Part shown: one piece after another, positions 25,256 through 41,663 of the stretch
How the letters are laid out: each line of letters starts with the position of its first letter
Position numbering within the stretch: the stretch's first letter is position 1
Origin: Microcaldota archaeon
GTDB lineage: Archaea; Micrarchaeota; Micrarchaeia; Micrarchaeales; Micrarchaeaceae
Length of the DNA stretch: 60,432 bases
Direction of reading: 5' to 3'
NCBI GenBank assembly: GCA_021799635.1
Contig: JAJZAB010000004.1
Span: forward strand, 1 to 60,432
The notes under the pieces: generated by a model
What the model was told of the DNA's origin: nothing
What the model saw: only the letters and a program-made list of their open reading frames with translations
Databases searched by the model: none
Translations under genes and position numbers: made by a program

Positions 25256-25657
25256 ATGAACGGACTACACAAAATATACGCGAACTACAGGCTAAGAAGG
25301 ACAATACCAATGTTGGCGATGTCTTTTCTTATGGTGAGCGGATTGCTATCCTCTGTCTCTTTTTCGGCAGGAGGGATAACTACTAGCGTAACCAGCACCG
25401 TATGCGCACTATACAACACTGTGCACGATGTGATATTCTTCTTGGGCCTGGCTCTGATGATAGCAGGTGCAGCTCTGTATGCTGGATCAACAGTAATGCC
25501 GGCAACGCAGAAGGGGCAAGTGCAGGGATATGGAATGGGAATGATTATGGGAGGCATAATCGGTGTTATAATAGCACTGGCATCTCCATTCATTCTACAG
25601 ATAATAAGTGGAAGCACATCCCTTGCAGCAAGCTGCGCAGGGTACGGAACATTCTAG
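25256..25657 (+). CDS. Two-helix VirB2/CedA1-like pilin candidate
   Basis: 133 aa. A basic N-terminus (KIYANYRLRRT) and signal-like helix (residues 18-38) are followed by two membrane helices (about 57-77 and 95-117) joined by a short polar loop PATQKGQVQGYG. The mature part ends in a short Cys-containing tail. This is the layout of VirB2/TrbC and archaeal CedA1/TraV-like T4SS pilins, which are processed to two-helix subunits; similarity is by architecture, not clear sequence identity. GTGAT lies before ATG 25256. It has its own promoter and a strong terminator, as expected for a highly expressed structural subunit at the head of the membrane cluster. Confidence 0.65.
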   Translation: MNGLHKIYANYRLRRTIPMLAMSFLMVSGLLSSVSFSAGGITTSVTSTVCALYNTVHDVIFFLGLALMIAGAALYAGSTVMPATQKGQVQGYGMGMIMGGIIGVIIALASPFILQIISGSTSLAASCAGYGTF

Positions 25658-25706
25658 CTGTTCTATTGAATAGCTAGATTTTTTTTCTTTTTCTTTTTTC
25701 TTTTTT
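25653..25706 (+). terminator. Hairpin plus T-run after the pilin-like gene
   Basis: Stem tctagct (25653-25659) and agctaga (25672-25678), followed by an almost unbroken T/TC tract to 25706. The left arm includes the stop codon TAG of the 133-aa gene. Confidence 0.75.
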
Positions 25707-25799
25707 ATGCTTTATAGCGTAAGCCCTGTCAAACCTATTTATTCCTTTGCCAACCTATTATATTTTAGAGGTTTTTATGCCTATTATAGGTGTGCTTGA

Positions 25800-26531
25800 A
25801 TGACCAACGTGCTTGTATACTCAAAGGATACCTATCTTAAGCACATAGGGCACCTCCTCCTTTTCTCGATTTCCTTTATAATAGCGCTGCTAATACCGGT
25901 CTTTGCAGCCTTTCCAACATACAACGACATAGGCGCAATATTCGTAAGGACTGCTAGCATATTCGTCAACATAAACGCGTTAAGCAGCGCGATAATAGTA
26001 GCTTCTACGATGTTTTCGCTGCTGTTCCTCAGCTTCGCCATAGTGGCCATAAACATCATAGTGAAGCACAGCAGAACCCATGTAAGGATAAAAAAGGACG
26101 TGCTGGACGGGCTGGAAAAGTACACGAGCAGGGTATTTGTAGTACTCCTGATATACCTTCTGCTGGTCACCGCAGCCAACCTCATCACATACCACTACAA
26201 ATCGTCAGGAATCATCACAGCTGTTGTTGGGCTGATTTTAATTCCATTCTTCTTCTACGCCCCTTCCGCCATAGTCATAGATGATAGGAGGATATGGAGG
26301 TCCATGCGCTCCAGCGCTACATTTTTTGTAAAAAGGTTCGACTACTTCCTGCTCTGGCTTGTATTGTCAATACTTCTACTAACTCTTTTTGACTTCATAT
26401 TCATAACGATAAGCGGGACGCTGCTGTCAAGATACGCCATGCTGGTCTTCGATTCGTTGTTCATACTGCCATTCCTGGTTGTCCTGCAGAGCGAGTGCTA
26501 CATGAAAAGATTTGCGATGCTCAAACGCTGA
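25800..26531 (+). CDS. Six-helix membrane protein
   Basis: 243 aa, about six membrane helices with a basic loop (KHSRTHVRIKKDVLDGLEKY) in the middle. The pattern FYAPSAIVIDDRRIWRSMRS between helices is reminiscent of YciC/DUF7847-like and glycerophosphodiester phosphodiesterase-associated membrane domains, but I cannot assign a family firmly. GGTG lies before the ATG. A TATA-like tattatatttt (about 25759) gives it a separate promoter. It sits between the pilin candidate and the six VirB6-like genes on the same strand and may belong to the same machine; a helper in membrane insertion is only a guess. Confidence 0.65.
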   Translation: MTNVLVYSKDTYLKHIGHLLLFSISFIIALLIPVFAAFPTYNDIGAIFVRTASIFVNINALSSAIIVASTMFSLLFLSFAIVAINIIVKHSRTHVRIKKDVLDGLEKYTSRVFVVLLIYLLLVTAANLITYHYKSSGIITAVVGLILIPFFFYAPSAIVIDDRRIWRSMRSSATFFVKRFDYFLLWLVLSILLLTLFDFIFITISGTLLSRYAMLVFDSLFILPFLVVLQSECYMKRFAMLKR

Positions 26532-26562
26532 CGTTAAACCTTTTTTTTTACCTATACCATTC

Positions 26563-26570
26563 ATATAAAT
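26563..26570 (+). promoter_or_regulatory. TATA box of the VirB6-like gene array
   Basis: atataaat lies 34-41 bases before ATG 26604, within a T-rich intergenic stretch after the upstream stop. The next five genes follow with gaps of 10 bases or less, or an overlap, so one transcript of about 7.7 kb is likely. Confidence 0.5.
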
Positions 26571-26603
26571 ACCTTTTTAGCACATTTCTAGTGTTTGAGG
26601 AGT

Positions 26604-28358
26604 ATGCGCAGCATAATTGTTGCTTTATTTTTTGCTCTGACGCTCCTATACATAGCACAGCAACTCACGCTGCCTAACGCACAGAGCGTGGCTATAAATC
26701 CGAGCGCAACGCAGAACCTAGACCTTGGCCAGTTTGTTAACTTCATAGCATTGGCGACAGGGTTCCACGGCCCCCCTCCAACTTACCAGTGGTATGAAGG
26801 AGTGAGCTCAACATGCACCAGCGACGCCCTCATAACAGGCGCCGTAGGCGGTGCCTATACCTACAAGCCAACTGCTACTGGGACTACGTACATATGCACG
26901 AGCGCCTCGAGCGGCGGCGTTACGGTTTACTCGAACACCGTGGAAGTAGTAACGAACCCGGCTCTGTCTACCCCAGCCGCATATCCATCTTCTGCGACAT
27001 ACGTCCCAGGCCAGGTCATAAACATAATAGTCCAGCCTTCCGGAGGCACCCCTCCGTACAACTACCAGTGGTTCAACGCAACTTCAGGTCCCGGAACGTT
27101 AATACCCGGTGCTACATCGTCAACATTCTCTGAAACTGCAGGAGGAGCAATAAAAACGTTCAAATACTACGCCAGGGTTACTGACAGCGCAACCGCCCCG
27201 GAGCTTGCCATATCCCCGCAGTCGTCTGTTGTGGTAAGCAACACGCCGCCGCTGCAGACGTTGAACTGCATAGTCACTGGCACAATGCTTTCCTTTGGCC
27301 AGTGCATTTCTTACATGATTCCCCTAGCCCTTATAGGCCTAATGCTGTCACTGGCGCTCATAGCGCTTGCTTACATGATTGGCGAGATACTTGATATGGG
27401 CGGGCTGAAGGGTTGGTACAAGAATGAGCTGAAGGAGACAGCAAAGAGCGCGCTTCTCATAGTTATAATAATATCATCACTAGTTATACTAAGTTCCATA
27501 GCAGCTAGCCTGGCCGGCGCGGCAGCGGCGACTGGCACCCCAACCGACATATACACCAACCTTGGCGGACTATACAACGTAGTGAACAGTAGCTACCTCA
27601 CTAGCCAGCGAAACATAGCCTCTACAGCTTATAGCGAGATGGTAGACCTGGACATAGGGCTAGGTGCAGTTAAGGGAATCGCTATATCCACATGGATACC
27701 ATTCCCAATACTTCCTCCACCCCTTCCCATATTCGGATCTACGCAGTTCGGCTCTTCAGAGCCCATATACGTTAGCACAATACTTAGCTCTAAGGGATCT
27801 CCCAATACCTCCTTCGTTAACGACGCAATAATGATAATCGCCCTGCCGGTATACATAATAATGCAGGTCCAGGCAGATGCGCTGTGGTCAATAATAGAAA
27901 TTGGCATGCTTATATTCATACCGGTAGGTATACTGCTCAGGGCGCTCCCGTTAATGAGGGCGCTGGGAGGCGCGCTGGTTGCAATCGGCATAGGAATCGG
28001 GCTCATATACCCAGCCGTACTTGTCGGGTTCAACATGCCGGTGTCAAGCTACTTCCAAGCAGTTTCCCCGCCAGCCGGCAGTGGATGCTCAATCCCCGGC
28101 TTTGGAGGTATCCTTGGGAGTGTTGTAAGCATTGCGTGCGGATATCTAGGAGGTATTGTAGGCTTGGGTTCTGGCTTTGCAAGCGTCGGCAGCGTGTATT
28201 ATGCAATAAACCTGGTGCTTGCATACGAGTTCGACCTTATAATACAGTTCCTTCTGTTCGTGATTGATATAATTATAATTATTACACTGGTTAGTAACAT
28301 AGCGAAGATGCTTGGAGGCAGCCTGCGCCTAGGAATAGGCAACATCAAATTGATATAG
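26604..28358 (+). CDS. VirB6/TrbL-like membrane protein A with two Ig-like ectodomains
   Basis: 584 aa. ATG 26604 is preferred over TTG 26595 because GAGG lies directly upstream and a signal peptide then begins MRSIIVALFFALTLLYIAQQ. Two Ig-like modules follow (about 30-115 and 118-215), each with the Cys/Trp or Tyr-Gln-Trp pattern (TYQWYEG, YNYQWFN). From about residue 230 come seven or so helices. YMIGEILDMGG and LKGWYKNELKETAKSALLI form the conserved N-proximal block, and RALPLMRALGGALVAIGIG followed by YP (about 445-468) is the block shared with the five following genes. It is the first of six tandem paralogues; the Ig domains are unique to it and may contact a partner cell or the pilus. 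Confidence 0.7.
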   Translation: MRSIIVALFFALTLLYIAQQLTLPNAQSVAINPSATQNLDLGQFVNFIALATGFHGPPPTYQWYEGVSSTCTSDALITGAVGGAYTYKPTATGTTYICTSASSGGVTVYSNTVEVVTNPALSTPAAYPSSATYVPGQVINIIVQPSGGTPPYNYQWFNATSGPGTLIPGATSSTFSETAGGAIKTFKYYARVTDSATAPELAISPQSSVVVSNTPPLQTLNCIVTGTMLSFGQCISYMIPLALIGLMLSLALIALAYMIGEILDMGGLKGWYKNELKETAKSALLIVIIISSLVILSSIAASLAGAAAATGTPTDIYTNLGGLYNVVNSSYLTSQRNIASTAYSEMVDLDIGLGAVKGIAISTWIPFPILPPPLPIFGSTQFGSSEPIYVSTILSSKGSPNTSFVNDAIMIIALPVYIIMQVQADALWSIIEIGMLIFIPVGILLRALPLMRALGGALVAIGIGIGLIYPAVLVGFNMPVSSYFQAVSPPAGSGCSIPGFGGILGSVVSIACGYLGGIVGLGSGFASVGSVYYAINLVLAYEFDLIIQFLLFVIDIIIIITLVSNIAKMLGGSLRLGIGNIKLI

Positions 28359-28366
28359 TGGATTGA

Positions 28367-29533
28367 ATGATAGGTGCACCAATACTGAACAACTGCGCCA
28401 TATACGGCGCCTCAAACTATACCAACAACTGGCTCGGCATAAACTACCTTGTCATACTGGCCGGACTCTTTCTTGTCGCATTTATTTACATGATATCAAA
28501 GTTCATGCCGGCGAACATGAAGGCCAGGATAGTGTCAATGACAAGAGTTGAGCTGGTGGAGCTGTTCACCTCAGCGCTCATAATAGTAGTCCTGCTTTTC
28601 TTTGCTTCTGCAGTGTGCAATATATCTTCAACTCTAAGCTATCAGGCTACAGGATCATCATACAGCCCTTTTATTTACAGTGATTTCTACATAGGAAACC
28701 TTACCTTCAACACCGGGCTGAAACTCCTTTCGCAGGTATATACTCTATCAATAGGATTCGCGATTGATGGAAGGCTTCTTACCGCAGTTTCAAACTTTCT
28801 GTCAACACTTGTATCCGCCCCGGAACAGTCCGGCATAATCCAGATAACATTTCCATTCGGGTACGACCTTGGGGTTTTATACAATTCCGTAAGCACGCTG
28901 TTCCTGGACTTCCTGGCCCCGATTGTAGTGGCAGCCCTCGGCACCCTTTTCGTACAGTGGATATCAATCCCGCTAATACAGGCCACGGCGTTCGTTGTGG
29001 TACTTCCAATAGCGATAATAATGCGCTCTCTACCTCTCTCTGGAGCCGGAGGAGGGCTCAGGAGCGCCTCAAACGCAGTACTTGCCATAGCGGTAGCTGC
29101 ATACCTCATATACCCGCTTACAATATCCTTTGATCCATGCATGATATCATGGATATACGGTAACAGCAGCTGCATAGCAGCTCCAAACTATTCTGCGCCG
29201 TATATTCCTTCGTACCAGCTGAATACCCTTACACCCGGAGTCCTGTCGGCCATCTCTTCAAACAGCACGGCCAGGACAGGGATAGCCGGTATATCAACAC
29301 CAATGATAAATTCATTCATAGGAACCGCTTTCGATGCAGGAATAGGCGCAGTAGATCCATACACCCTGCTGTCCTCCACGCAGACAATGATAATATACAT
29401 ATCGCAGTTCATTTTCCAGGGCGTGATACTATTTGCGCTCGACATAACAATTACGATAGGATTTGCATTCGGCCTGTCAAAGGCGCTGGATGCCGGCCTC
29501 GGGGGGCAGTCGCCCTTCTGGAGCAACATATAG
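28367..29533 (+). CDS. VirB6/TrbL-like membrane protein B
   Basis: 388 aa, about seven helices. The N-proximal block reads YMISKFMPANMKAR and then TRVELVELFTSALIIVVLL. The central block is RSLPLSGAGGGLRSASNAV followed by YP (about 219-245), the most diverged of the six because TR is replaced by SG. Extracellular loops contain sequons and pairs of cysteines. There is no obvious cleavable signal peptide. It starts nine bases after the previous stop (spacer contains GTGG) and ends eight bases before the next ATG. Role inferred: inner-membrane channel component of a T4SS-like complex. Confidence 0.7.
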   Translation: MIGAPILNNCAIYGASNYTNNWLGINYLVILAGLFLVAFIYMISKFMPANMKARIVSMTRVELVELFTSALIIVVLLFFASAVCNISSTLSYQATGSSYSPFIYSDFYIGNLTFNTGLKLLSQVYTLSIGFAIDGRLLTAVSNFLSTLVSAPEQSGIIQITFPFGYDLGVLYNSVSTLFLDFLAPIVVAALGTLFVQWISIPLIQATAFVVVLPIAIIMRSLPLSGAGGGLRSASNAVLAIAVAAYLIYPLTISFDPCMISWIYGNSSCIAAPNYSAPYIPSYQLNTLTPGVLSAISSNSTARTGIAGISTPMINSFIGTAFDAGIGAVDPYTLLSSTQTMIIYISQFIFQGVILFALDITITIGFAFGLSKALDAGLGGQSPFWSNI

Positions 29534-29540
29534 TGTTTTT

Positions 29541-30980
29541 ATGATACCGTACAACAGCCTGATAGCACTTCCGGCCCTCGCTGTAGCTACATCCAGCTTC
29601 CCAGCCGCGCAGGCAGCCCTCATGCCGCTTGTTGTCGCAGCCTTGCTGCTTGACACTGTAATCATATCAGTATGGTACATGCTTGGCATAATACTGAACA
29701 ACTCCACTGTAAAAATATCTGCAAGGGGTGAATTCTACCAGCTGCTTGGAACCGCCATACTAATTGCAATACTGCTTTCGATTTTCCTGATATTCTCGCA
29801 GACCTTCTTCTCCCTGCTCAACTCATCAAGCACAGCCGGTGGGCTGATGAGCAATTCTACACTCGGCACCATGTGCAGCAATATAGAAAGCACTACGAAG
29901 GTAAATGCGCTGACCAGCGGCGGACTGCTAGGCACAATATGCTCCTACATAACCGGCAGGGCAGACAGCCTTACATACAGGATGGGATATCCGCTAGCTG
30001 CATCTGACGTGATAATCGCAAACCTTACCAACCAGACAGCTTTCAACCTAAATAATCTTTTTATAGTTGACTCCTACCTGGGCTTCCTTTCAAAGCTATC
30101 TCCTACATTTAGCATATGCATATCTGGTGAGGTGGACTCTCCAGTGTGCTTAGTCCCACTACCTATTCCACCTCCTGCCTTTGATTCTACACTTTCTGCT
30201 ACCCCATACGCCGGGTTCGACCTTGTATACAAAGGGTTTTCCTCTCTAGGCGCGCTGATGACCCTATCATTCGAGTCATTCATAGTGCAGCTTGGCCTTT
30301 CCACAATGTTCCTTTTCATATGGCCAGCGCTGCTATTTGTTGGCATAGTTCTAAGGGCCACGTTCTTCACCAGGAAGATCGGTGGGCTTTTCATAGCAAT
30401 TGCAATAGGAGCTATAATATTCTACCCGTTGGTATTCTCCATCCAATACCTCACCCTGGGAAGGGGGCTGGGCAACATAACAGGGTTTGGAAATGTGATA
30501 TCTGCAAACCCAAATTCCATTTCATCAATATATGGATTCAACAGCATAACATCCAATTCCCTTACAGCCATACCAGGATACACCCCAAACTTCTATGTCG
30601 AACCTGCTTTCAACAACATAGCATATTCAACGGGCTGCTGGCCTGGAGGGTCGTCCTCGGTCCCGTCTGACGGAGCGCTGGGCGCGGAAGTGACTGACAT
30701 CGGAGAACTTCAAATTCCTTTTGTATCACTTGTAGAATTGTTGTCATCGCTTTACGGGTCATTTGTCTCCGGGTATCCAAGCATGTCTCTGACCTTCCAG
30801 TGCACCGCCTCCCAGGCTCAGAATACCCTATTTGCCTTCTTGAACGCTTACGGTATATACGGAATATCTGCATACCTGCTGCCAATCCTCAACATACTTA
30901 TAGTAGTATCAGCTATAATAGGTCTCTCTGGGCTGCTAGGAGGAGATACGCAGCTCGCCGGGCTCAGTAAATTGATTTAG
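29541..30980 (+). CDS. VirB6/TrbL-like membrane protein C
   Basis: 479 aa. The start is ATG 29541, seven bases after the upstream TAG; the open frame extends back into gene B but that part is a shadow. The N-proximal block is WYMLGIILNNSTVKISARGE and then FYQLLGTAILIAILL. The shared central block is RATFFTRKIGGLFIAIAIG followed by FYP (about 272-293). It has long extracellular loops with four or more cysteines and many Ser/Asn, the longest of the set. Hydrophobic segments give about seven helices. The C-terminus ends GGDTQLAGLSKLI, similar in style to the ends of A, D and F (GG or GS, then L). Confidence 0.7.
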   Translation: MIPYNSLIALPALAVATSSFPAAQAALMPLVVAALLLDTVIISVWYMLGIILNNSTVKISARGEFYQLLGTAILIAILLSIFLIFSQTFFSLLNSSSTAGGLMSNSTLGTMCSNIESTTKVNALTSGGLLGTICSYITGRADSLTYRMGYPLAASDVIIANLTNQTAFNLNNLFIVDSYLGFLSKLSPTFSICISGEVDSPVCLVPLPIPPPAFDSTLSATPYAGFDLVYKGFSSLGALMTLSFESFIVQLGLSTMFLFIWPALLFVGIVLRATFFTRKIGGLFIAIAIGAIIFYPLVFSIQYLTLGRGLGNITGFGNVISANPNSISSIYGFNSITSNSLTAIPGYTPNFYVEPAFNNIAYSTGCWPGGSSSVPSDGALGAEVTDIGELQIPFVSLVELLSSLYGSFVSGYPSMSLTFQCTASQAQNTLFAFLNAYGIYGISAYLLPILNILIVVSAIIGLSGLLGGDTQLAGLSKLI

Positions 30981-30989
30981 TTGGTTTGG

Positions 30990-32093
30990 ATGAACATTAA
31001 ATTTGCCAGAAAGAAAAATGTGCTTGGGTGCGCCCTGTCCGTGCTCATAGCCATGGCTCTTCTGGTGCAGGCACCAGGAGCAGTAACCACTCAATCGCAG
31101 ACCTTCTGCTCTTCCATACTTCCCCCTGGTCCAGGCCCGGCCCTGTCAAACTACGCGTCTCTGGATGGGCTTGTTGGTATATCTCTTCTAATACTACTTA
31201 CAATGTCTGTAATAGCAGGTATTGTTTACGTAATCGGCTCTTCTTTCAGGATAAACAGCCTTGTCAGGTTCAGCAAGCAGGAGGTTGGCGAGATAATATT
31301 GACTGCAATCATAGTGCTAATATTTATAGGCACTTTTGCAATAGGCGGAGCCTTCAAGCCGCCCAAGATAATAACCATAACCGGCGCTTACAATGAAAAT
31401 GTGTTCATATATGACTGCGGGTACCTCGCCAATTCTTCAATCTCCCTAATCCCGCTTTACTTTGATGTGCTCATTGGCCAGGATATGATAAACCTCCTGT
31501 CATCACTTAAAATTACTGTAATGCCAGAGGATTTTGGATTTTCTGACACCCCTCTCTCTGGATATAGCGTTGCTGCTTCTGCGACCGGAGTTGTCCTAAA
31601 TTTCAGCGTGGTTTTAACCGGGCTGCTGGTAGCTACGGCCGTGCTGCTTGGCATATTCTATGCACTACTGCCTATTTTCCTCTTTGCAGGCATAATACTG
31701 AGAACCCTACCGTTTACCAGGGCTGCAGGTGGGGCATTCCTAGGACTTTTCATCGCATTCTACATATTTTTCCCAAACATACTGCACTTCACGCTTACCA
31801 CGCTGCCGACTCCTCCGCTTATACTCACCCCACCGTCCAACGTTCTCAACGGCATACTAAGCAATATCACAAACTTTGTAAATATTATTTCAACATTTGG
31901 TGCTATACTATCCTCTACTCTCTCCCCAACCGCCTTGCTTTCGACAGTTATAGGCATACTTGTTGATAACATCTATGCTGCCTTTGCTGCAATAATCTCA
32001 CTAATATTATCATTCGACTTTATGGAAACGATGGGCGACCTTCTTGGGTCCCCAAGCCTGCAATCCGGCAATACCCTGAAGAGGCTGTTATAA
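30990..32093 (+). CDS. VirB6/TrbL-like membrane protein D
   Basis: 367 aa from ATG 30990 (TTG 30981 is the alternative). The N-terminus MNIKFARKKNVLGCALSVLI leads a signal peptide ending near APGAV. The N-proximal block is VYVIGSSFRINSLVRFSKQE and then VGEIILTAIIVLIFI. The shared block is RTLPFTRAAGGAFLGLFIA followed by FFP (about 238-258). Its stop overlaps the next start (TAATG), so translation is coupled. The two cysteines near 43 and 145 may form an extracellular disulfide. Confidence 0.7.
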   Translation: MNIKFARKKNVLGCALSVLIAMALLVQAPGAVTTQSQTFCSSILPPGPGPALSNYASLDGLVGISLLILLTMSVIAGIVYVIGSSFRINSLVRFSKQEVGEIILTAIIVLIFIGTFAIGGAFKPPKIITITGAYNENVFIYDCGYLANSSISLIPLYFDVLIGQDMINLLSSLKITVMPEDFGFSDTPLSGYSVAASATGVVLNFSVVLTGLLVATAVLLGIFYALLPIFLFAGIILRTLPFTRAAGGAFLGLFIAFYIFFPNILHFTLTTLPTPPLILTPPSNVLNGILSNITNFVNIISTFGAILSSTLSPTALLSTVIGILVDNIYAAFAAIISLILSFDFMETMGDLLGSPSLQSGNTLKRLL

Positions 32094-33172
32094 TGATCCC
32101 AAAAAAAATTTTGACTATTGCAATCATCCTCGCCGCGCTTGCATCAAGCAATGGTATAATAGTCCCAGGAGCCGCAACCCAAGGCTACGGCACCGCGGCA
32201 CTGCAGCTGCTCCCAATAGATATACACACGTGGATACCCATAGCCCTGCTCATTGTACTACTGATAACCATAATAGCAGCATTCATCTACATGCTTAGCG
32301 GAATAATAGGAAGCCAGAATGTCAGGGCGTGGTCCCTGGGTCAGGTAAATGAGGCATTCGTCTCCCTGATATTCCTGCTCATATTCGCCTTCTTCACCTA
32401 CCTTTTCTTCATCAACCCACAGGGCCCCTTCGGGGCCCTGGGTCTGATCCCGCCTGGCTGTACTGGATCTAGCGTAAATACAATATACACCCTATCTGCT
32501 TGCGATATAAACGCCTTCACCACAGACGCATTCACAATGACCCAGGTGGTGTTCTTTACCGGTTACTTTGCCGGAATATCTAGCGGGATCAACGCAGGGT
32601 TTTCAGCTCCGGGAATTCCAGGCATAAGCGCAAGCGTATTGCTATCAAGTTTCGTGCCAAGCTCAGCAGAGTCAATACTTGGCACAATGTTCAGCGCACT
32701 GCTGTTCATGCTCGTGCTCAACCAGGTGCAGGTCCTATTCATAAGCGCCGCCCTGTTATTCTTATCGCTGTTCATGGTGATAGGTCTGATAGCCAGGACT
32801 TTCGGCATAACCCGAAGCTTTGGAGGAATAATGATAGCTTTCGGCCTTGGCCTCGGCCTGGTGTACCCTCTGCTTGTCACAATAAGCTACGGATTCATAC
32901 TCAATGGCATAGGCACCCTAAACTTCTCCGGGCTGCTGGTTGAACTCACGGGGCTTGTGGCTGAGCTGTTCTTCACCATACTAACCTCAGTTACCTCAGG
33001 GTCCGCGTATTTGCTGCCAAACAACTTTATACTTCCGCTTGCATACGTAATAGCAGGCCTGACATTTATACCATTTATAAACTTCACCATACTAGAGACG
33101 TTCGTCAGCGACTTTTCGAAGGCACTTGGCCAGCAGGTCAGCTTCCTATCGTTGATATCTACACTATTGTGA
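32093..33172 (+). CDS. VirB6/TrbL-like membrane protein E
   Basis: 359 aa. Signal-like N-terminus MIPKKILTIAIILAALASSN. The N-proximal block is IYMLSGIIGSQNVRAWSLGQ and then VNEAFVSLIFLLIF. The shared block is RTFGITRSFGGIMIAFGLG followed by VYP (about 235-256). Two cysteines bracket a loop of about 18 residues (PPGCTG to ACDIN), probably extracellular. It begins inside the stop codon of D and is followed four bases later by F, so D-E-F form the tightest part of the array. Confidence 0.7.
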   Translation: MIPKKILTIAIILAALASSNGIIVPGAATQGYGTAALQLLPIDIHTWIPIALLIVLLITIIAAFIYMLSGIIGSQNVRAWSLGQVNEAFVSLIFLLIFAFFTYLFFINPQGPFGALGLIPPGCTGSSVNTIYTLSACDINAFTTDAFTMTQVVFFTGYFAGISSGINAGFSAPGIPGISASVLLSSFVPSSAESILGTMFSALLFMLVLNQVQVLFISAALLFLSLFMVIGLIARTFGITRSFGGIMIAFGLGLGLVYPLLVTISYGFILNGIGTLNFSGLLVELTGLVAELFFTILTSVTSGSAYLLPNNFILPLAYVIAGLTFIPFINFTILETFVSDFSKALGQQVSFLSLISTLL

Positions 33173-33176
33173 TCCC

Positions 33177-34328: not shown

Positions 34329-34339
34329 CATTGTGCTCA

Positions 34340-34350
34340 TATAAATATAA
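34340..34350 (+). promoter_or_regulatory. TATA box before the VirB3/VirB4N-like pair
   Basis: tataaatataa lies about 25-35 bases before ATG 34374, so the transcript is nearly leaderless. It starts a second transcription unit within the transfer locus. Confidence 0.5.
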
Positions 34351-34373
34351 AATAGAATTGCGTATTGGTTTTT

Positions 34374-35210
34374 ATGAACCCTAAAATATTCATGTTTTTG
34401 GGACTTCTTGGCGTGTCGATAGCCCTTCTAATAATAGCGCTAGCCGTACCACTGTCCATACTCCCATCTCCGATAAAGATACTGATACTGGCCCTATCCC
34501 TATTATTTGACATACTGGCGTTCTCATCCAGGCACTATTCCTATATAATAATGCCTGCCCTGCAGCAGAGAAGCAAGAGGATTGTGCTAAGCAACGAGGA
34601 GCCGTACTGGATGTCAACCTCTGAGGATTCTATAATAAAGAGGGAAAAGGGCTATTTTATAGCCTCTGTGTATATAAGTATACCAATATACCGTTCCGCA
34701 ACTGAAATGACCGATCTTGAGAAAGTTGATTTTTCAAGGCAGGCCAGCAAGCTCATAGGGGTAAGCAGGGATCCGGTGAGGTTTACCACAGAGATGTACC
34801 TGATGAACAAGGATGCGTACCTGCAGATACTCAGGGATGCAATAAGCGCCGCAGAAAACGATCAAGCAAGGCTTATGCAGCAGAAATCAACCGACCCGGA
34901 GGAGCTCGACATGGTAAAGGGCAAGCTCGCGATGTGGAAAAACATATTTGACAACGTAAGCAAGGTGCAGTCTCTTGAGCTTACGTCTTATGTCACAGTG
35001 TCAGCCGAAGGCCTGAAGGAATACGAGGCCGTGAGCCTGGCACAGCAGAAGGCCAGAGAGATGATGTCGGGCATAGCTTCCATACTGGGCGTGACGCCTA
35101 GTATAATAACTGGCAAGGACATACTTAAGTTTGTTGAACCTGAATACCTAATACCTTTCTCAACAATAACCGAGCAGATAAACAAGAACATAGAGGAAGA
35201 GGTGATATGA
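34374..35210 (+). CDS. Two-helix membrane protein with cytosolic VirB4 N-domain-like region (copy 1)
   Basis: 278 aa from ATG 34374. Two helices (residues about 4-50) are followed by a cytosolic domain: IIKREKGYFIASVYISIPIY, a helical middle (YLQILRDAISAAENDQARLM, then a charged coiled stretch), and a beta strand ELTSYVTVSAEG leading to EYEAVSLAQQKAREMMSGI. The order of two helices, beta-rich start, long helices and a second beta unit recalls PrgI/VirB3 plus the N-terminal domain of VirB4/TraC, here detached from the ATPase. The next gene has the same plan. GATATGA joins it closely to that gene. Assignment is by architecture only. Confidence 0.55.
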   Translation: MNPKIFMFLGLLGVSIALLIIALAVPLSILPSPIKILILALSLLFDILAFSSRHYSYIIMPALQQRSKRIVLSNEEPYWMSTSEDSIIKREKGYFIASVYISIPIYRSATEMTDLEKVDFSRQASKLIGVSRDPVRFTTEMYLMNKDAYLQILRDAISAAENDQARLMQQKSTDPEELDMVKGKLAMWKNIFDNVSKVQSLELTSYVTVSAEGLKEYEAVSLAQQKAREMMSGIASILGVTPSIITGKDILKFVEPEYLIPFSTITEQINKNIEEEVI

Positions 35211-36044
35211 GTGGACGAAGAAGAGATAATGTACCTTGCCTTTTCGCTTCTCGTTGTGCTAATAGTGTTTGCCTTCCTTTCCTCTTTTGGGAAAGGGTGG
35301 TCACTGCTGGCGGCAATACTGGCAGTCATAACCGCTGTTATAATAATTATGATAAACTGGGCTGACTTCATCATATTCCCGTTTTTTACCAAGACGTTCG
35401 GAATTACGTTCCAGCCTGCGCGCGACTACAACATAATAAAGACCCAGGACGCAATAGTAAAAAACGTAAACGGGCTGTTCTACGCCACCGGCTTCCTCAC
35501 CGCAAACGTCTTCTCCTACTCTTTCAAGGAGGAACAGAACGATCAGGATATAGAGTCTAAGCTTCTTGCAGCGCCAGACAACTGGGAGAAGGCTGTGATG
35601 AGCACCAACTTCCCGTTCAAGTTTCACGTCCTGTCGGCCGGAAATGACATACAGCAGGTAAGGGATGAGTTTGAGGGCAAGAGAAGCTATCAGGAATTCC
35701 AACTCTCAAGGATGCAGCAAAAGGAGGGTGCGGCCAACGAGTCAGCCATAACCGAAATAAGGAGGAACATCAGTGTGATACAGGCAAAAATAGACAGAAT
35801 TTCAAGGGGCGAGAAGCCGGTATCCTCAATAATGTACATAGAGACCACTGCAGTGGGGGTTAGCGAAAAGGCTGCGGTTGACAACCTCACGGCGCAGATA
35901 AAGCAGCTGCAAATATCGATGAGTTCCCTGGACCTGCAGATCAGCAGGGTTGTAGGCCGAGAGCTATATCTGCTGTTCAAGTTTAACTTTTCGCTTCCGT
36001 GGAGCATAAAGGAGGTAGAATCGCAGTTCTCCAAGGAAGGCTAA
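35211..36044 (+). CDS. Two-helix membrane protein with cytosolic VirB4 N-domain-like region (copy 2)
   Basis: 277 aa with a GTG start at 35211, directly after the upstream stop. Two helices (about 6-50) precede a cytosolic domain with DAIVKNVNGLFYATGFLTAN, FPFKFHVLSAG, a coiled coil (EIRRNISVIQAKIDRISRGE), the strand SSIMYIETTAVGVSEKAA and a last helix pair. The central NxVxGLFYATGF strand matches IKREKGYFIASV in the previous protein in position and pattern, so the two genes look like an ancient duplication. Both precede the VirB4-like ATPase and plausibly anchor it to the membrane channel. That is inference. Confidence 0.55.
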   Translation: MDEEEIMYLAFSLLVVLIVFAFLSSFGKGWSLLAAILAVITAVIIIMINWADFIIFPFFTKTFGITFQPARDYNIIKTQDAIVKNVNGLFYATGFLTANVFSYSFKEEQNDQDIESKLLAAPDNWEKAVMSTNFPFKFHVLSAGNDIQQVRDEFEGKRSYQEFQLSRMQQKEGAANESAITEIRRNISVIQAKIDRISRGEKPVSSIMYIETTAVGVSEKAAVDNLTAQIKQLQISMSSLDLQISRVVGRELYLLFKFNFSLPWSIKEVESQFSKEG

Positions 36045-36051
36045 ACATAAG

Positions 36052-36060
36052 TTATATAAA
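36052..36060 (+). promoter_or_regulatory. TATA box of the VirB4-like ATPase gene
   Basis: ttatataaa lies about 30-38 bases before ATG 36090. A third promoter in the locus would let the ATPase be expressed separately from the channel genes. Confidence 0.5.
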
Positions 36061-36089
36061 ATAAAAGACAGAATGTAATAGTGGTTTGA

Positions 36090-37604
36090 ATGAGTTTGGT
36101 GAAGTTACAAAGGCTTATGAGCGATGAGATAGCAAAGAGGACGTTTTTCTCAAGACCGCCAGAGCCTCCGGCAAGCGTACTGCTCAGCGACCCGTTCCAG
36201 GCCATATACATAGGCACTACAAAAATATTCAAGGTACCATTCAGCTGGTCGTTCATGAACCTTACTAACCCACACATAGCAGTTGTAGGAATAACCGGCT
36301 CAGGAAAGAGCTTCTTTGTGAAAACGCTGCTTAGGAGGGCAAACTACGTCTGGAACACAAATGCAATAATAATAGACTGGGCTGGGGAATACAAATCCTG
36401 GGTAGAGCAGACGAGAGGCAAGGTGGTGTCCCTGGCGAAGGGCGACTACATAAACATAATGGACCTCTCCGGCATGAAGCCGCTCGACAGGACCAAGCAG
36501 ATAATGACCTCCTTCGAGATACTCACTGACATAGCACAGTTTCCAGAGCAGAAAAGGCTCACGCAGGAGGCGATGGAGCAGTCGTACACCAATTTCGGGT
36601 TCACACTGTACGAAAAGCCGGTGGAAGGGAAGGAAGTGCCGACTCTAAAGGAGGTTATATCCCTACTGCAGGAGAAGCTCCAGGAAGGCACGTACCAGTA
36701 TCCAGCTGAGCTGGAAAATGCGATATACAGGCTAAGGCAGTTCGCCAGAGAGGGTGAAGACTATTTCTCCAGGAAAAGCACCATCGACCTTGGCAAGCTG
36801 TCAGAATCCGGGCTTGTCGACATAGACCTCTCCGGCTTGCCCGATGAAAAATTCCGCGCCCTGGCAGCGCTGTTCATACTGCAGACGCTGAAAGAAAAGA
36901 TGAGAGCCGAGGGGTGGAGCGAAACAAAAGGGCTCAAGGCAATAGTGGTCCTTGACGAGGCCTGGAAGGTTGCCGGAGATGATAGGAGCGATGCGATAAC
37001 GATAGTTAGGGAGGGCAGAAAGTACCAGTTCGGCTTGATAGTGGCTTCGCAAAACCCGACTGATGTAAACGAGGCGATATTCTCCAACGTCGGCACAACG
37101 TTCATACTAAGGATCAAGTTTGAGAAATTTATGAATTACCTGCAGGGATCGCTGAGGTTCTCCGAATTCATAAAGGGTGAAATAAGCAAGTTCGGCGTAG
37201 GCCAGGCCGCCGTGGAGATGGCGTTCCAGACAGCGCTCAATTTCCCAGAAACATTCGTGCTCGAAAGGATACAGGGAGAGGGGCCGCTCTACGTGTACAC
37301 GATAGACCTGTCAGATGTGCTGACGCAGAGCGAGATCAGCGCCGGCATAATACAGAAAGAATATCTGCTAGAAAAGGACGAATTCAAAAACAAGTTTATA
37401 GAGTACAACATCAACGTCGATAACATAAATGATATTTTTGCCTCAATTGATGCCGCAAACAGGTCGATAAAGGTGCTTGATTTCATACGCCTACTAAAGA
37501 GCGAATCCGTTCAGAACTCCAGCATTGTGGCATTTTTCAAGAGCTTGAGCATAGAGGATTCGATTATATCAAGAATAATATCTTATGCTGGTGGCAATGG
37601 CTAA
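36090..37604 (+). CDS. VirB4/HerA-class ATPase of the transfer apparatus
   Basis: 504-aa cytosolic motor of the VirB4/TraC/CedB-HerA group. It has Walker A GITGSGKS (67-74), IIIDWAGEYKSW (a HerA/VirB4 signature after the first strands), Walker B IVVLDEAW (285-292) and VASQNPTDVNEAIFSNVGT (the conserved Gln and downstream sensor region). It lacks the usual VirB4 N-terminal domain, which may be supplied by the two preceding genes. The C-terminal 75 residues (from about NINVDNINDIFASIDA) form an added helical domain that recurs as the next gene. The downstream start overlaps its end. It probably powers pilus or DNA movement. No second ATPase of VirD4 type is seen. Confidence 0.88.
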   Translation: MSLVKLQRLMSDEIAKRTFFSRPPEPPASVLLSDPFQAIYIGTTKIFKVPFSWSFMNLTNPHIAVVGITGSGKSFFVKTLLRRANYVWNTNAIIIDWAGEYKSWVEQTRGKVVSLAKGDYINIMDLSGMKPLDRTKQIMTSFEILTDIAQFPEQKRLTQEAMEQSYTNFGFTLYEKPVEGKEVPTLKEVISLLQEKLQEGTYQYPAELENAIYRLRQFAREGEDYFSRKSTIDLGKLSESGLVDIDLSGLPDEKFRALAALFILQTLKEKMRAEGWSETKGLKAIVVLDEAWKVAGDDRSDAITIVREGRKYQFGLIVASQNPTDVNEAIFSNVGTTFILRIKFEKFMNYLQGSLRFSEFIKGEISKFGVGQAAVEMAFQTALNFPETFVLERIQGEGPLYVYTIDLSDVLTQSEISAGIIQKEYLLEKDEFKNKFIEYNINVDNINDIFASIDAANRSIKVLDFIRLLKSESVQNSSIVAFFKSLSIEDSIISRIISYAGGNG

Positions 37605-37905
37605 CCCCAACACTTTCGTAATAAGCAGAATAGAGCTCAGGAGGATGCTGATTGCATACGGCATAACCGACAGGAACATTTCTGCGCTGTTCAGCAGCAT
37701 GGAGAAAGCACACAGGCACATCAACATAATACAGTTCGTTGCCATGTTGGATAAAGCCGGGATTAGCAGGGACAAGATATCAAACATCTTCAGGAGGCTA
37801 AACATGAGCGATATAATGATAAGCGAAGTGCTCAACATGGTCGATGAAAGCAAGATCGTAGCCGAAACCGGTAGGTTGTACGCAGCAAGCATAGATATTG
37901 GTTGA
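37597..37905 (+). CDS. Small helical protein, stand-alone copy of the ATPase C-terminal domain
   Basis: 102 aa from ATG 37597 (ATG 37585 adds four residues). GGTGG three bases upstream favours 37597, and the start overlaps the ATPase stop. The sequence is all-helical: YGITDRNISALFSSMEKAHR, then INIIQFVAMLDKAGISRDKI and NMSDIMISEVLNMVDE. It aligns with the last 75 residues of the ATPase in spacing and type (NINDIFASIDAANRSIKVLD, then FIRLLKSE and SIEDSIISRIISYA). The stand-alone unit may compete with, cap or regulate the ATPase hexamer. Function is inferred. Confidence 0.7.
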   Translation: MANPNTFVISRIELRRMLIAYGITDRNISALFSSMEKAHRHINIIQFVAMLDKAGISRDKISNIFRRLNMSDIMISEVLNMVDESKIVAETGRLYAASIDIG

Positions 37906-37910
37906 TGTAG

Positions 37911-38330
37911 ATGGAGAAGCTAAAGCCGCGCTGCATAATCTGCGGGGAGGAAAAGGAAGGCCTTAACATAAAGATCGACAACATAGTAACAACAATAAGG
38001 TGGATCAACTCCCACACCATAAGGGCGAAGAGCAGGGGAAGGCCGGTGGTGTGCCGCGAATGCTTCCCAAAGTACTACAAGGCGAGGAAAAGCTATGAAA
38101 AGAAGCTTGTGTCATACCTGATAATCGGCATACTTTTCGCTATATTCATAATCGTGGCTTCCAGGGCCCGCCCGTCATCATTCCTTTTTGGGTTTGCCAT
38201 AATAGTCTTCATGTTCCTGCTTTCAATCATATCATACGTGCCTTCTGTGGAAACGAAAGCTGCAGGCGCAGCCCGTCAAGCCAAAACCAGCCAAACTAAT
38301 GGGTATAAAAGAGGAAGGCACAAAACATGA
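37911..38330 (+). CDS. Zinc-ribbon membrane protein
   Basis: 139 aa. An N-terminal zinc ribbon has CIICGEE and, after about 38 residues, CREC. It is followed by a basic stretch (KYYKARKSYEKK), two membrane helices (about 67-84 and 89-108) with a short loop, and a basic Ala/Lys/Thr-rich cytosolic tail. The zinc ribbon lies in the cytosol, so it could bind the ATPase or nucleic acid at the membrane. It starts five bases after the previous stop. Not recognised as a named family. Confidence 0.65.
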   Translation: MEKLKPRCIICGEEKEGLNIKIDNIVTTIRWINSHTIRAKSRGRPVVCRECFPKYYKARKSYEKKLVSYLIIGILFAIFIIVASRARPSSFLFGFAIIVFMFLLSIISYVPSVETKAAGAARQAKTSQTNGYKRGRHKT

Positions 38331-38382
38331 TGATGCAAAATAGTATTAAAATACGTGAATAACAATTATCTAGAGTGATGCA

Positions 38383-39120
38383 TTGGCTGAGGAACAGGGC
38401 AAGGCAGGTTTTATAGAGCCTGACATCGAGGAGATTAGCTTAAAGAGCAGGCTTTCTGGCAGCTTTGAGGAAATCTCAAAGAGAGTGTCGTCCCTGCAGT
38501 TCTTCTACGCAAAGCTTGACAGCGATGGGATCTCCATCCTAAGGATAGAAAGCAGAGACATACAGAAAAGGCCATTCCTATTTTTCATAATAAGGATGAC
38601 AAAGGACAACATAAACGTCCAATATTCGATAGCCCACGATTCTAGCCCGAAGCTGAGAAGGCTTTACATACTGAAGAACCTGCTAGCTATACTGTCGCTT
38701 ATAGCTGATATATACCAAGCAGACAACGCCGAGCTTTTCCAGCACCTGGACTCTGCCATAGAAGATGTCACCAATTCAATAACCCAGAGCTATAGCGCCC
38801 TTTTCAACAACTACGATTCGCTGTTCAATGAGTACAGGGAGCTGAAGAGGCTTAACATAGTGCTAACCGCTTCCAACAAGAACCTCACCGTGCAGGGCAT
38901 GCAGCTAAGCGCTGAAAACAAGGACCTGAAGGACAGGATGAAATCGCTAGAGATGTATTCTGACGAGTCGCTGATGGTGATGGTGCAGGACTGGATAGAA
39001 ACCCACGACAGCACCATAGACATAAATGACTTCTCCAAAGTGCACAAAGTACCTCCACCCAGGGTGGAGCAGATTCTTAACAAGATGGTATCGCTCGGCT
39101 ATATAGAGATAAAAGGTTAG
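38383..39120 (+). CDS. Coiled-coil winged-helix protein
   Basis: 245 aa. The start is TTG 38383, decided by GTGAT at 38375-38379; the nearby ATG at 38378 is out of frame. The N-terminal alpha/beta domain (about 20-120, containing LRIESRDIQKRPFLFFIIRM) is followed by a coiled coil (about 120-185, NEYRELKRLNIVLTASNKNL) and a C-terminal winged helix (about 190-245, DWIETHDSTIDINDFSK, then PPPRVEQILNKMVSLGYIEI). It is soluble. It could be a regulator of the locus or a DNA-binding component delivering substrate to the ATPase. No family name can be given. Confidence 0.65.
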   Translation: MAEEQGKAGFIEPDIEEISLKSRLSGSFEEISKRVSSLQFFYAKLDSDGISILRIESRDIQKRPFLFFIIRMTKDNINVQYSIAHDSSPKLRRLYILKNLLAILSLIADIYQADNAELFQHLDSAIEDVTNSITQSYSALFNNYDSLFNEYRELKRLNIVLTASNKNLTVQGMQLSAENKDLKDRMKSLEMYSDESLMVMVQDWIETHDSTIDINDFSKVHKVPPPRVEQILNKMVSLGYIEIKG

Positions 39121-39123
39121 GCT

Positions 39124-39273
39124 ATGAAATACGTGATAAGGATAAACAAGCGCATCAAGTACCTAAAGACGTATAAGATATTAAAAAAAGCCGGACCGAG
39201 TGATAACTTCCTTACAAGAGTCTTTGTTAGGTTATTCAATAAAAAGGAGCCCAAAGATGAAATGCCCCTCTGA
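39124..39273 (+). CDS. 49-residue basic peptide
   Basis: Short open frame from ATG 39124 to TGA 39271-39273, filling the 170-bp gap between two longer genes. The product is strongly basic and amphipathic (RINKRIKYLKTYKILKKAG, then RVFVRLFNKKEPKDE). It begins three bases after the previous stop and ends 17 bases before the next start. Close packing and codon use like the neighbours suggest a real gene. It could bind DNA or membranes. Only conservation can confirm it. Confidence 0.5.
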   Translation: MKYVIRINKRIKYLKTYKILKKAGPSDNFLTRVFVRLFNKKEPKDEMPL

Positions 39274-39290
39274 GTTGGCGTAGTGGTAAT

Positions 39291-41663
39291 ATGCGTTTCA
39301 AAAAGTTCTTCATCATTGCTGTAGTAATCGTAATACTGATAGCCGCATTCATGGCGTACATAGGGGTCAGTTTCAGGTCGCTGCTTTCAACAGTAACGAA
39401 GCCCACACCGCCGCCAATAACATATCTTAATACATCAGTCGCGGCCACCAACCTGCTTTCGTACAACCTTGGCACCTCCCTGATCCCATACGCACTTGTG
39501 TACTACAATGAAAAGAACATCTCCTCCATAAATATAAACGCCACGCTCTTTTTGACCCCGCCGCCCAAGAGCATCTACATACTGAACGATAGCAACAGCT
39601 GCCCGTTCAACTGCCAGAACCTTCCAAACATAATAAGCGCGGTAAAAGCGGCACTGGTCCAATACAATGTAGTCGGCAGCCAGTCCCAGATATATACCAT
39701 AGACCAGCAAGATCTTGCATACCTGCCAAACGATTCGGCCCTCATAATACTGGGGAGCGCTATGCCATTCTCAATGTATTCAAAAGTAAACGGGACAAAT
39801 CAAATGCTTTTATCATATCTCCTAAATAAGGGGACAGATATAGTATACGCAGGCAGCAACTTCTCTTACGCCACACAGGGAGACATACTAATTAACGTAA
39901 CTTCTTCAACCCTGCCTACCTACCTTTCCTGGACGCAGCACAATGAAATATACAGCAACAGCGGCTTTTTCTTTAACTACAGCACGTTCAGCTTTACGCT
40001 CGGCAGCCAGTACGGTCCACTCACATACGTGAGCTACGGGAACGGATCAATACTCGCGTTCCCGAATTACATAACGACATGGAAGAATGCAAGCGACGCT
40101 GGCCACGATGTGGCAAAGTCATTATCGCAGCTTTTCTGGCTACCGAAATACGCATTTGGATATGCAAATGCCACAATTTTAAACAGGACAAATTCAACAG
40201 GCGACGTCGGAGTAGTTATGGCATATTCGTCGAATACGCTGCAATACAATAATAGAATAAAATCCCGGGACCAGGGCTATGGCAGAATAGTCGTGTATAC
40301 AAACAGTACATATTCCATAGGAAACTTCACTAATGACATTTACAAGTATGAGTCATACAAAACAAACTTAACGATAAACGGCACAATGGCCATTGATGAC
40401 AATATAGTTCCCGGCGAACAAATACTGCCGATACCAACAATATCCCTTTTCCTACCGAGTTCGCAGCCGAAGCTCTATTCTCCACACATAGTAATCTCGG
40501 ATCTCAATTCAACCAGGGTGCAGACTATACCTCTCTCATCTTTCAACGCGAGCGGCAACATATCCGTAATAGAGCCGCTGACCCTGTACCTGCCTCCGGG
40601 AAGGTACATAGCCCAGGTGCTCGGTTTCTACGATAACCAGTATGCAGCAGCCCTTTTCAACGTGTACCCGATTGAAATCAGCCTTGCTTCGGCAAACTAC
40701 ACAAACGGCGCCTTCACATTCAAGCTAGAGTCTTCAAACACGCCGCTGTCAAATATAGGGTATAACATATCTGTTAACAAGCTGTATCCTGCAAATGGCA
40801 CAGTAAGCAACGGGACTATTGTATACGTTCTGCCGAAAGGGTCGCCCAAGCTGAGAGGTAACATCACATTCAGCATAGGCATGCTGACAAAGGTTTTCAC
40901 CTACAGCACATCAAACAGCCCAATAAAGATAGTCATACCTTCGCAATACATAGAGCTTGCAATTGTAGTGCTGGTAATGTTTATAATAATAACGGTGGTG
41001 AGGGCCCCCAACAGGGACGAATTCTACATAGACGTGCCAACGATGACAAAGGTAAAGCCGATACCTATAAAGCTCAAGGCGGAGGATGTTGTCCAGGCAT
41101 TCGATAAGCTTAACGTCTATTACCACTGGAAGTACATGCCGCTTTCAGTGGCAGAAGCCAAGATAGCCATCGCCAACAACCTGAGGTATAACAATATGAC
41201 GGTAAACCTAACGCACAGCAACGTAGACGTGATACTGAATCAACTAGTTACGGCGGGCTACCTTGTGGGCGCAGACGGGCTATACGCTCCGAAAGCTTGG
41301 ATTTCGCAGAGCGGCCACGATATAGAATACCTTGCCACTTTCAAGAAGCTCAGGGTATACCTAGTCAACCACGCCTATGTATTTACAGATATAGATAGCA
41401 GCGATAAGGCTGACATAATAGCAACCATACACAACGAAAGGGTATACATCGTCATATTCTCGCAGACCAGCAAGTTCAAGAAAATGCCAGTGTCGCCAAG
41501 CGCAAAGACATACATAGCATTCCTAAACTCCTACAAATTGGATGAGTTCGAAAACTACATGCGCGAGTACTCAACGCCTTCTGCAGAAGAACTTAGGATG
41601 TACATATCCGTCGGACAGGTGAAGCTAGTGGACGCAGACAATCCGGAATACATACTTACATAA
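39291..41663 (+). CDS. Large exported glycoprotein with transmembrane helix and cytosolic tail
   Basis: 790 aa. An N-terminal anchor or signal (residues 5-24) is followed by a large ectodomain (about 30-560) with more than 30 NxS/T sequons. The ectodomain includes a GATase/LD-like alpha/beta segment (LPNDSALIILGSAMPFSM, then KGTDIVYAGSNF) and late beta-sandwich modules (TLYLPPGRYIAQVLGFYDNQ). One helix (about 563-583, ELAIVVLVMFIIITVV) leads to a cytosolic part of about 200 aa with a winged-helix-like region (SNVDVILNQLVTAGYLVGAD) and an alpha/beta region (KKLRVYLVNHAYVFTDIDSS). GTGG precedes the ATG. It closes the transfer locus and could connect cell-surface contact with the cytosolic machinery. 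Confidence 0.65.
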   Translation: MRFKKFFIIAVVIVILIAAFMAYIGVSFRSLLSTVTKPTPPPITYLNTSVAATNLLSYNLGTSLIPYALVYYNEKNISSININATLFLTPPPKSIYILNDSNSCPFNCQNLPNIISAVKAALVQYNVVGSQSQIYTIDQQDLAYLPNDSALIILGSAMPFSMYSKVNGTNQMLLSYLLNKGTDIVYAGSNFSYATQGDILINVTSSTLPTYLSWTQHNEIYSNSGFFFNYSTFSFTLGSQYGPLTYVSYGNGSILAFPNYITTWKNASDAGHDVAKSLSQLFWLPKYAFGYANATILNRTNSTGDVGVVMAYSSNTLQYNNRIKSRDQGYGRIVVYTNSTYSIGNFTNDIYKYESYKTNLTINGTMAIDDNIVPGEQILPIPTISLFLPSSQPKLYSPHIVISDLNSTRVQTIPLSSFNASGNISVIEPLTLYLPPGRYIAQVLGFYDNQYAAALFNVYPIEISLASANYTNGAFTFKLESSNTPLSNIGYNISVNKLYPANGTVSNGTIVYVLPKGSPKLRGNITFSIGMLTKVFTYSTSNSPIKIVIPSQYIELAIVVLVMFIIITVVRAPNRDEFYIDVPTMTKVKPIPIKLKAEDVVQAFDKLNVYYHWKYMPLSVAEAKIAIANNLRYNNMTVNLTHSNVDVILNQLVTAGYLVGADGLYAPKAWISQSGHDIEYLATFKKLRVYLVNHAYVFTDIDSSDKADIIATIHNERVYIVIFSQTSKFKKMPVSPSAKTYIAFLNSYKLDEFENYMREYSTPSAEELRMYISVGQVKLVDADNPEYILT

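Follow-up and report, generated by a model that had tools for sequence, protein, structure and literature searches.

We analyzed a locus for a putative transfer machine, resembling type IV secretion systems (T4SSs) and the archaeal Ced DNA-import system, in contig JAJZAB010000004.1 of a Microcaldota archaeon of the family Micrarchaeaceae (assembly GCA_021799635.1); the stretch examined, hereafter the window, is 60,432 nucleotides long. Fifteen collinear genes and a conserved open reading frame (ORF) of 49 amino acids (aa) occupy positions 25256–41663. All reading frames lie on the plus strand, with intergenic gaps mostly of −20 to +60 bp. In order, the genes encode a pilin candidate, a 243-aa membrane protein (m243), six polytopic VirB6-like proteins (B6a to B6f), two proteins resembling the N-terminal domain of VirB4 (N1 and N2), a motor ATPase, and the accessory proteins s106, zn139 and cc245, followed by the 49-aa peptide and a 790-aa protein. 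An earlier annotation made from the letters alone (the sequence-only reading) had placed these tightly spaced, same-strand ORFs correctly; the accessory proteins that it mentioned are present, but it overlooked the 49-aa ORF. The arrangement is not due to chance: the B6 proteins are mutually homologous, N1 and N2 are homologous to each other, dozens of loci in Micrarchaeota show the same order, and the ratios of nonsynonymous to synonymous substitution (dN/dS) are low. Homology among the window proteins was assessed by pairwise hhalign, and structures were predicted with AlphaFold2 (AF2) for N2 and B6f.

The motor ATPase (36090–37604) is a soluble 504-aa P-loop protein of the HerA/VirB4 superfamily, with the Walker A motif GITGSGKS, the Walker B motif VVLDEAW and a C-terminal helical domain. 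Its NCBIfam matches ranked CedD (3.6e-20), CedB (8.3e-18), VirB4 CD1110 (1.2e-17) and HerA (1.8e-15), those in Pfam were DUF87 (1.3e-20), AAA_10 (1.7e-13) and P-loop_TraG (1.5e-10), and the PDB returned VirB4 (4ag5, 1e-9) and also HerA. With CedD, CedB and VirB4 as its best matches, the protein qualifies as the VirB4-type ATPase of a T4SS machine in the broad sense, at scores far below the equivalog cut-offs (72 bits vs 600 for CedD, 64 vs 700 for CedB). The closest plasmid-encoded proteins are VirB4/TraC and ATPases of that kind, 117 of 167 of them on conjugative plasmids; all are less than 60% identical, and at most about 27% among the matches listed. The adjacent gene (37585–37905) encodes s106, a soluble 106-aa protein that, from its alignment to the C-terminal domain of the ATPase (hhalign 98.8%, E 1.1e-16), is a paralogue and free copy of that domain. 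Two further ATPases were seen in the same genome. One, of ~605 aa and of the HerA/VirB4 superfamily (G000:C4:334335-336152, minus strand; L185:4336-6153), matched CedB best in NCBIfam (3.7e-16) and has no pilin or B6 neighbours; similar matches recur in relatives. The other, DUF87-like (G000:C2:30880-33017; L186:4880-7018), is broken by a TAG stop into frames of 264 and 436 aa and is possibly a pseudogene.

N1 (34365–35210) and N2 (35211–36044) are paralogues of ~280 aa each (hhalign 99.9%), with two transmembrane (TM) helices and a VirB4 N-terminal-like domain but no ATPase domain. The AF2 model of N2 (predicted local distance difference test score 83) places the two TM helices at the N-terminus, and its six best PDB matches were all TrwK/VirB4 chains (probability 0.95–1.00, E 0.02–0.18). 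N2 thus has the features of a membrane-anchored, VirB3-like VirB4 N-domain, at weak E-values. Given this fold match and the separate ATPase, VirB4 is divided here, on the model, between subunits that carry the N-domain and one that serves as the motor.

The first gene (25256–25657) encodes a 133-aa protein with a signal/TM segment and two further hydrophobic helices separated by a short basic loop, a VirB2/CedA1-like layout. The window protein alone matched TrbC at 0.022. Among 20 orthologues, seven matched T4SS_pilin (best 2.8e-5) and seven matched TrbC (best 1e-4), all below the Pfam gathering score, and two independent profiles had TrwL of plasmid R388 as their top PDB match (E 0.024 and 0.038). 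The protein therefore groups with the VirB2/TrbC pilins. The orthologues carry a near-invariant cysteine pair, C50 before the first pilin helix and C127 near the C-terminus, which suggests a disulfide in the filament. Just 3′ of the gene, a long T-rich tract (25665–25710), read directly from the sequence, is a probable transcription terminator separating the pilin gene from the channel operon, since archaeal termination uses poly-T; such a terminator would probably allow pilin to be made in excess. The two-helix pilin, the two membrane-anchored VirB4 N-domain-like proteins and the VirB4/HerA-class ATPase had all been proposed by the sequence-only reading, and the searches bear these proposals out.

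Between the pilin and N1 lie m243 (25800–26531), a polytopic protein that has no Pfam match and whose orthologues hold the same place across the class, and the six polytopic B6 proteins (359–587 aa), which are mutually homologous (hhalign 98.6–99.8%). B6a (26595–28358, 587 aa) carries N-terminal immunoglobulin (Ig)-like domains (Ig_3 0.0016 and SprB 0.00091, both below cut-off). B6b (28367–29533, 388 aa) has an N-terminal TM pair that resembles the pilin (hhalign 91.0%), compared with less than 20% between the pilin and the non-B6 membrane proteins of the locus. This likeness parallels the relation of CedA1 to CedA and, reported with lower significance, of VirB2 to VirB6 (PMC9905601). B6c (29541–30980, 479 aa), B6d (30981–32093, 370 aa) and B6e (32093–33172, 359 aa) are assigned by homology to the other B6 proteins and by conserved position. 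B6f (33177–34328, 383 aa), the best conserved, has a predicted signal/TM segment and, in its AF2 model (score 85), very long membrane helices. Scattered family matches of individual B6 members in the Pfam and NCBIfam scans were dismissed as chance.

The same genome contains a smaller version of this set, at G000:C4:234057-237359 (L184:10058-13360), with one gene each for pilin, B6, N and ATPase; downstream of it lie genes for 228-, 180- and 366-aa proteins without family matches. In profile comparison, the cassette proteins matched their window counterparts at 98.4% (pilin), 99.1–99.8% (B6), 99.8–99.9% (N) and 100% (ATPase). The window operon is a paralogue-expanded form of the cassette, with six B6 and two N genes. 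The two ATPase types also group together in a tree of low deep support (0.65–0.81), which did not include authentic HerA and was not used to decide between HerA and VirB4. The four-gene cassette is found in ARM-1 and other family members as well, and its ATPase in at least 104 of 197 relatives, a lower bound because it evolves fast. One genome of family f11 has an intermediate, pilin-B6-N-ATPase-s106-zn139 (L197:8740-13293, G075:C30), whose ATPase groups with the window type. The homology of the minimal and intermediate cassettes to the window parts suggests that the enlarged operon stands at the end of a series that began with four core genes like those of Ced/Ted. The core order exists in a bacterial system too: a Spiroplasma element runs pilin, TM protein, 116-aa protein, VirB4.

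Related loci come nearly all from Candidatus Micrarchaeota, including Ca. Micrarchaeum A_DKE, Ca. Mancarchaeum and ARM-1. The ATPase is present in 57 of 60 close relatives (64–78% identity), in 245 of the 295 genomes of the phylum and in 89 of the 96 that are at least 90% complete. In the 164 Micrarchaeota genomes that are at least 85% complete, the N2 profile was found in 151 and the B6f profile in 152, and the two were concordant in 163 (151 with both, 12 with neither), the remaining one having B6 only. Since the 12 genomes with neither profile belong for the most part to a handful of families (f10, f13, f15, f17 and f22), the N and B6 parts appear to have been lost together, in counts not corrected for phylogenetic non-independence. 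Neither profile was found in the ~228 other archaeal genomes searched.

A gene-neighbourhood search showed that the order is conserved across Micrarchaeota. The series pilin-m243-B6a-f-N1-N2-ATPase-s106-zn139-cc245-790aa recurs through the order and ends beside TopoVI-B; further out in the class the modules keep the same order, with pilin duplications. Exactly six B6 genes were found in 61 of the 82 loci with B6 genes, the others being mostly truncated by contig ends. In 443 of 448 cases the best profile of a B6 gene could be predicted from its position, a figure that is partly circular, as the profiles were derived from BLAST assignments to the window genes, without the use of position. The B6 block and N1-N2-ATPase lie apart in some lineages, and ARM-1 has the parts scattered over several sites (L187 contains the B6 block, L189 N1-N2 and L136 the ATPase module); that ARM-1 keeps these core parts indicates that selection maintains the set without operon linkage. 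Pairwise distances correlated with those of TopoVI-B for the ATPase (r = 0.85), N2 (0.84), B6f (0.71) and the 790-aa protein (0.85; Mantel p ≤ 0.001, 51 loci), and dN/dS was 0.046–0.224 for all genes tested, indicative of purifying selection. From the conserved order, the near-universal ATPase, the distances that track TopoVI-B and the purifying selection, we conclude that the locus is a core chromosomal, vertically inherited trait and not a mobile element. Micrarchaeota families outside the order (L191, L192, L195 and L198) had as many as 16 B6-type matches, spread over several clusters, some of the matches lying in very large proteins (open frames >700 aa).

How does the locus compare with known systems? 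Like Ced of the Sulfolobales (CedA, CedA1, CedA2, CedB, CedD and CedE), it is chromosomal, lacks a relaxase and combines a probable two-helix pilin with a polytopic candidate channel protein that has paralogues (CedA/CedE in Ced); its ATPase is nearest CedD and CedB, and in both the VirB4 N-domain function is shared between paralogues (PMC11868833). Ced has one or two channel paralogues, whereas the window locus has six, and it adds s106, a zinc-motif protein, a coiled-coil protein, a basic small protein and the 790-aa protein. CedB and CedD unite a TM segment, a VirB4-like N-domain and the ATPase in a single chain; here N1/N2 and the ATPase share these domains between them. Because of this difference, and of scores far below the cut-offs, we do not count the locus as Ced proper; it would operate much as Ced/Ted and T4SSs do, and is probably their relative. 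By description, Ted of the Thermoproteales (TedA, TedB and TedC) resembles the four-gene sister cassette in its minimal pilin, channel and ATPase set; its pilin is of the cleavable-signal type (PMC9905601), and neither a split of ATPase and N-domain nor an expansion is described for it.

Among bacterial systems, the T4SS of plasmid R388 gave the best matches for N2 (TrwK/VirB4), the pilin (TrwL/VirB2) and, in part, B6f (TrwI/VirB6), but equivalents of its VirB8, VirB10, VirD4 and relaxase were not recognised here. The sequence-only reading had seen no relaxase or VirD4, and in agreement with it the families PF03432, PF02534 and PF12696 had no match in the organism's own genome (88% complete, which makes the negative provisional; other relaxase families were not scanned), as expected for domesticated Ced-type systems: Ced and Ted likewise lack VirD4 and relaxase, and Ced imports DNA (PMC9905601, PMC11868833). 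MPF_FATA systems share the order pilin, VirB6-like protein, small protein and VirB4, in the Spiroplasma element, and a separate TrsD protein beside a DUF87 ATPase, on a Pediococcus plasmid. The nearest ecological parallel is the Patescibacteria, an ultra-small, host-dependent lineage with a phylum-wide T4SS and no relaxase (PMC12102498); they belong to another domain of life, and both VirB4 and a type IV coupling protein are reported there. A sixfold channel expansion and duplicated N-domain proteins are described neither for them nor for MPF_FATA. We found no description of a T4SS in Micrarchaeota or other DPANN archaea in the open-access literature, and VirB-type genes go unmentioned in the main text of papers on cultured or well-studied Micrarchaeota (PMC5498576, PMC8975820, PMC11329633, PMC5864196).

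We read the locus as a chromosomally fixed, T4SS/Ced-like contact machine that exchanges macromolecules, plausibly by DNA import, with hosts or kin, and give this reading a probability of about 0.7. The kinship with T4SS/Ced-type machinery is well supported; it was the proposal of the sequence-only reading, and the pilin, N2 and ATPase matches together with the conserved order support it at the level of the machinery. The outcomes that the reading had named as refuting (an unrelated transporter family for the six membrane proteins, a 133-aa protein outside VirB2/CedA1, no conserved co-occurrence) were looked for and did not turn up. Assembly, substrate, direction and partner are what we infer. 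The machine would share its ancestry with type IV secretion and conjugation and with the Ced/Ted DNA-import systems, and would have arisen by duplication within a core of pilin, VirB6-like channel, VirB4 N-domain and ATPase, to which accessory proteins were added. By analogy with VirB4, an ATPase ring may dock on a membrane platform of N1 and N2; the six different B6 proteins may build one large, probably hetero-oligomeric membrane channel, through which the pilin, like VirB2 and CedA1, could be polymerised into a thin pilus; and the 790-aa protein and the Ig-bearing B6a may project outward to the S-layer or the partner. Macromolecules would be moved across the membrane when the cell touches its host or a sister cell, the most plausible cargo being imported DNA, used as template or nucleotide source. 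DNA import is favoured by the similarity of the ATPase to CedD/CedB and by the missing VirD4 and relaxase matches, and it would suit organisms with incomplete nucleotide synthesis (PMC8975820).

Several results weigh against this reading. The pilin family matches are sub-threshold for most members, and the structural matches of N2 have E > 0.02 and a TM-score of about 0.4. The B6 proteins had no sequence match to VirB6, TrbL or CedA families in the Pfam and NCBIfam scans, and the likeness of the B6f model to VirB6 TrwI is weak (probability 0.51–0.82, E not significant, amid unspecific helical proteins); the search did not place B6f in an unrelated transporter family, and the topology and pilin resemblance of the B6 proteins agree with CedA. 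Of the six VirB6/TrbL-like proteins of the sequence-only reading, what stands is six mutually homologous polytopic proteins, whose VirB6 identity is only suggestive. Comparisons with profiles of pNOB8/pKEF9 proteins, and with single plasmid VirB6, TrsD, PrgI, VirB4-N and pilin profiles, matched the ATPases only; with profiles of one or two sequences, the negatives are uninformative.

The same parts could serve other ends. Protein export, with effectors or surface proteins delivered to the host or past the S-layer in place of DNA import, would fit a host-dependent lifestyle and the relaxase-free T4SS of Patescibacteria, which is thought to be co-opted and was found essential for epibiotic growth (PMC12102498). 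We consider it unlikely, if the most credible of the alternatives, given that none of the coupling protein families tested was detected, the ATPase is nearest to the DNA-import ATPases CedD and CedB, and no effector candidate was identified. Somewhat less credible is an adhesion or attachment pilus that retains the T4SS parts for pilus assembly but has given up cargo transport, in which the ATPase would solely extract and polymerise pilin. VirB4-type ATPases are required for pilus biogenesis, the Ig-like domains of B6a suggest surface contact, and thin filaments, possibly pili, occur on ARM-1 cells (PMC11329633); six distinct, separately conserved channel-type proteins nevertheless seem excessive for one pilus, and the single-B6 cassette has a pilin too. 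The failure to find the coupling protein and relaxase families tested, which would also suit a pilus, applies equally to Ted and to Ced, the latter an importer of DNA.

Two further readings fare worse. That a HerA-type DNA repair translocase lies by chance beside an unrelated envelope complex or transporter is very unlikely: the ATPase does match DUF87/HerA, and the B6 proteins belong to no named family, but the CedD, CedB and VirB4 CD1110 models score above HerA, linkage of these four parts is seen twice in one genome and also across the class, and the N2 model folds like a VirB4 N-domain. An integrated conjugative element or its remnant is strongly disfavoured and close to negligible. T4SS-type genes are present, and such elements are suspected in the Micrarchaeota genome Mia14 (PMC5498576), yet the mobility and patchiness of an integrated element were not seen: presence is phylum-wide, the site beside TopoVI-B is fixed, and the distances track that gene. 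Relaxase and VirD4 matches in the families tested, and close plasmid relatives, are likewise missing.

For the contact machine that we favour, structures at the host interface are of interest. By cryo-electron tomography, host-derived nanotubes dock on a 21-nm envelope barrel of unidentified nature in ARM-1 (PMC11329633), and Ca. M. harzensis has filaments at its contact sites (PMC8975820); neither structure has come with a molecular candidate. The genomes of ARM-1 and A_DKE (harzensis) both encode the system, and the locus is a candidate for the ARM-1 barrel. A more specific proposal, that the machine is a host-contact organelle in which a hetero-oligomeric six-channel complex forms the 21-nm barrel of Microcaldus variisymbioticus ARM-1 and takes in macromolecules of the host, either proteins or DNA that serves as a nucleotide source, is doubtful and put forward as speculation. 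The exchange of material between DPANN archaea and their hosts is an open question, and the locus gives a testable candidate for how host-attached Micrarchaeota achieve it. The genomes are below 1–2 Mb and much of their biosynthesis is gone; a near-universal, vertically inherited T4SS-like machine in them would be a counterpart to the T4SS of Patescibacteria, and the ultra-small radiations of bacteria and archaea would seem to have converged. The cassettes would show a route from a four-gene transfer cassette to a larger multi-channel apparatus.

The genes downstream of s106 complete the locus. zn139 (37911–38330), 139 aa long, combines two TM helices with a CxxC...CxxC motif and keeps its place in related loci. 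cc245 (38383–39120), soluble and 245 aa long, contains a coiled coil and resembles a winged helix at its C-terminus; it gave weak coiled-coil and winged-helix matches only. The 49-aa basic small protein (39124–39273; MKYVIRINKRIKYLKTY...) follows; a similar peptide, MKYxVRINKRxRYxRVYxIxKR...NxLTKLFxK, occupies the same gap between the cc245 and 790-aa genes in most sampled loci of the order (median gap 164.5 bp, 86 loci). The 790-aa protein (39291–41663), the conserved last gene product of the locus and a candidate envelope-spanning component, has two TM helices that enclose a large extracellular region, and its C-terminal region is cytoplasmic. It had no family match in the Pfam and NCBIfam scans, and PDB matches of its profile to designed TIM barrels were rejected as composition artefacts. 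In one related locus, an ORF of 401 aa that looks like a TnpB-type transposon protein (L103:12199-13401) lies between zn139 and cc245, an apparent insertion recognised by eye from its N-terminus.

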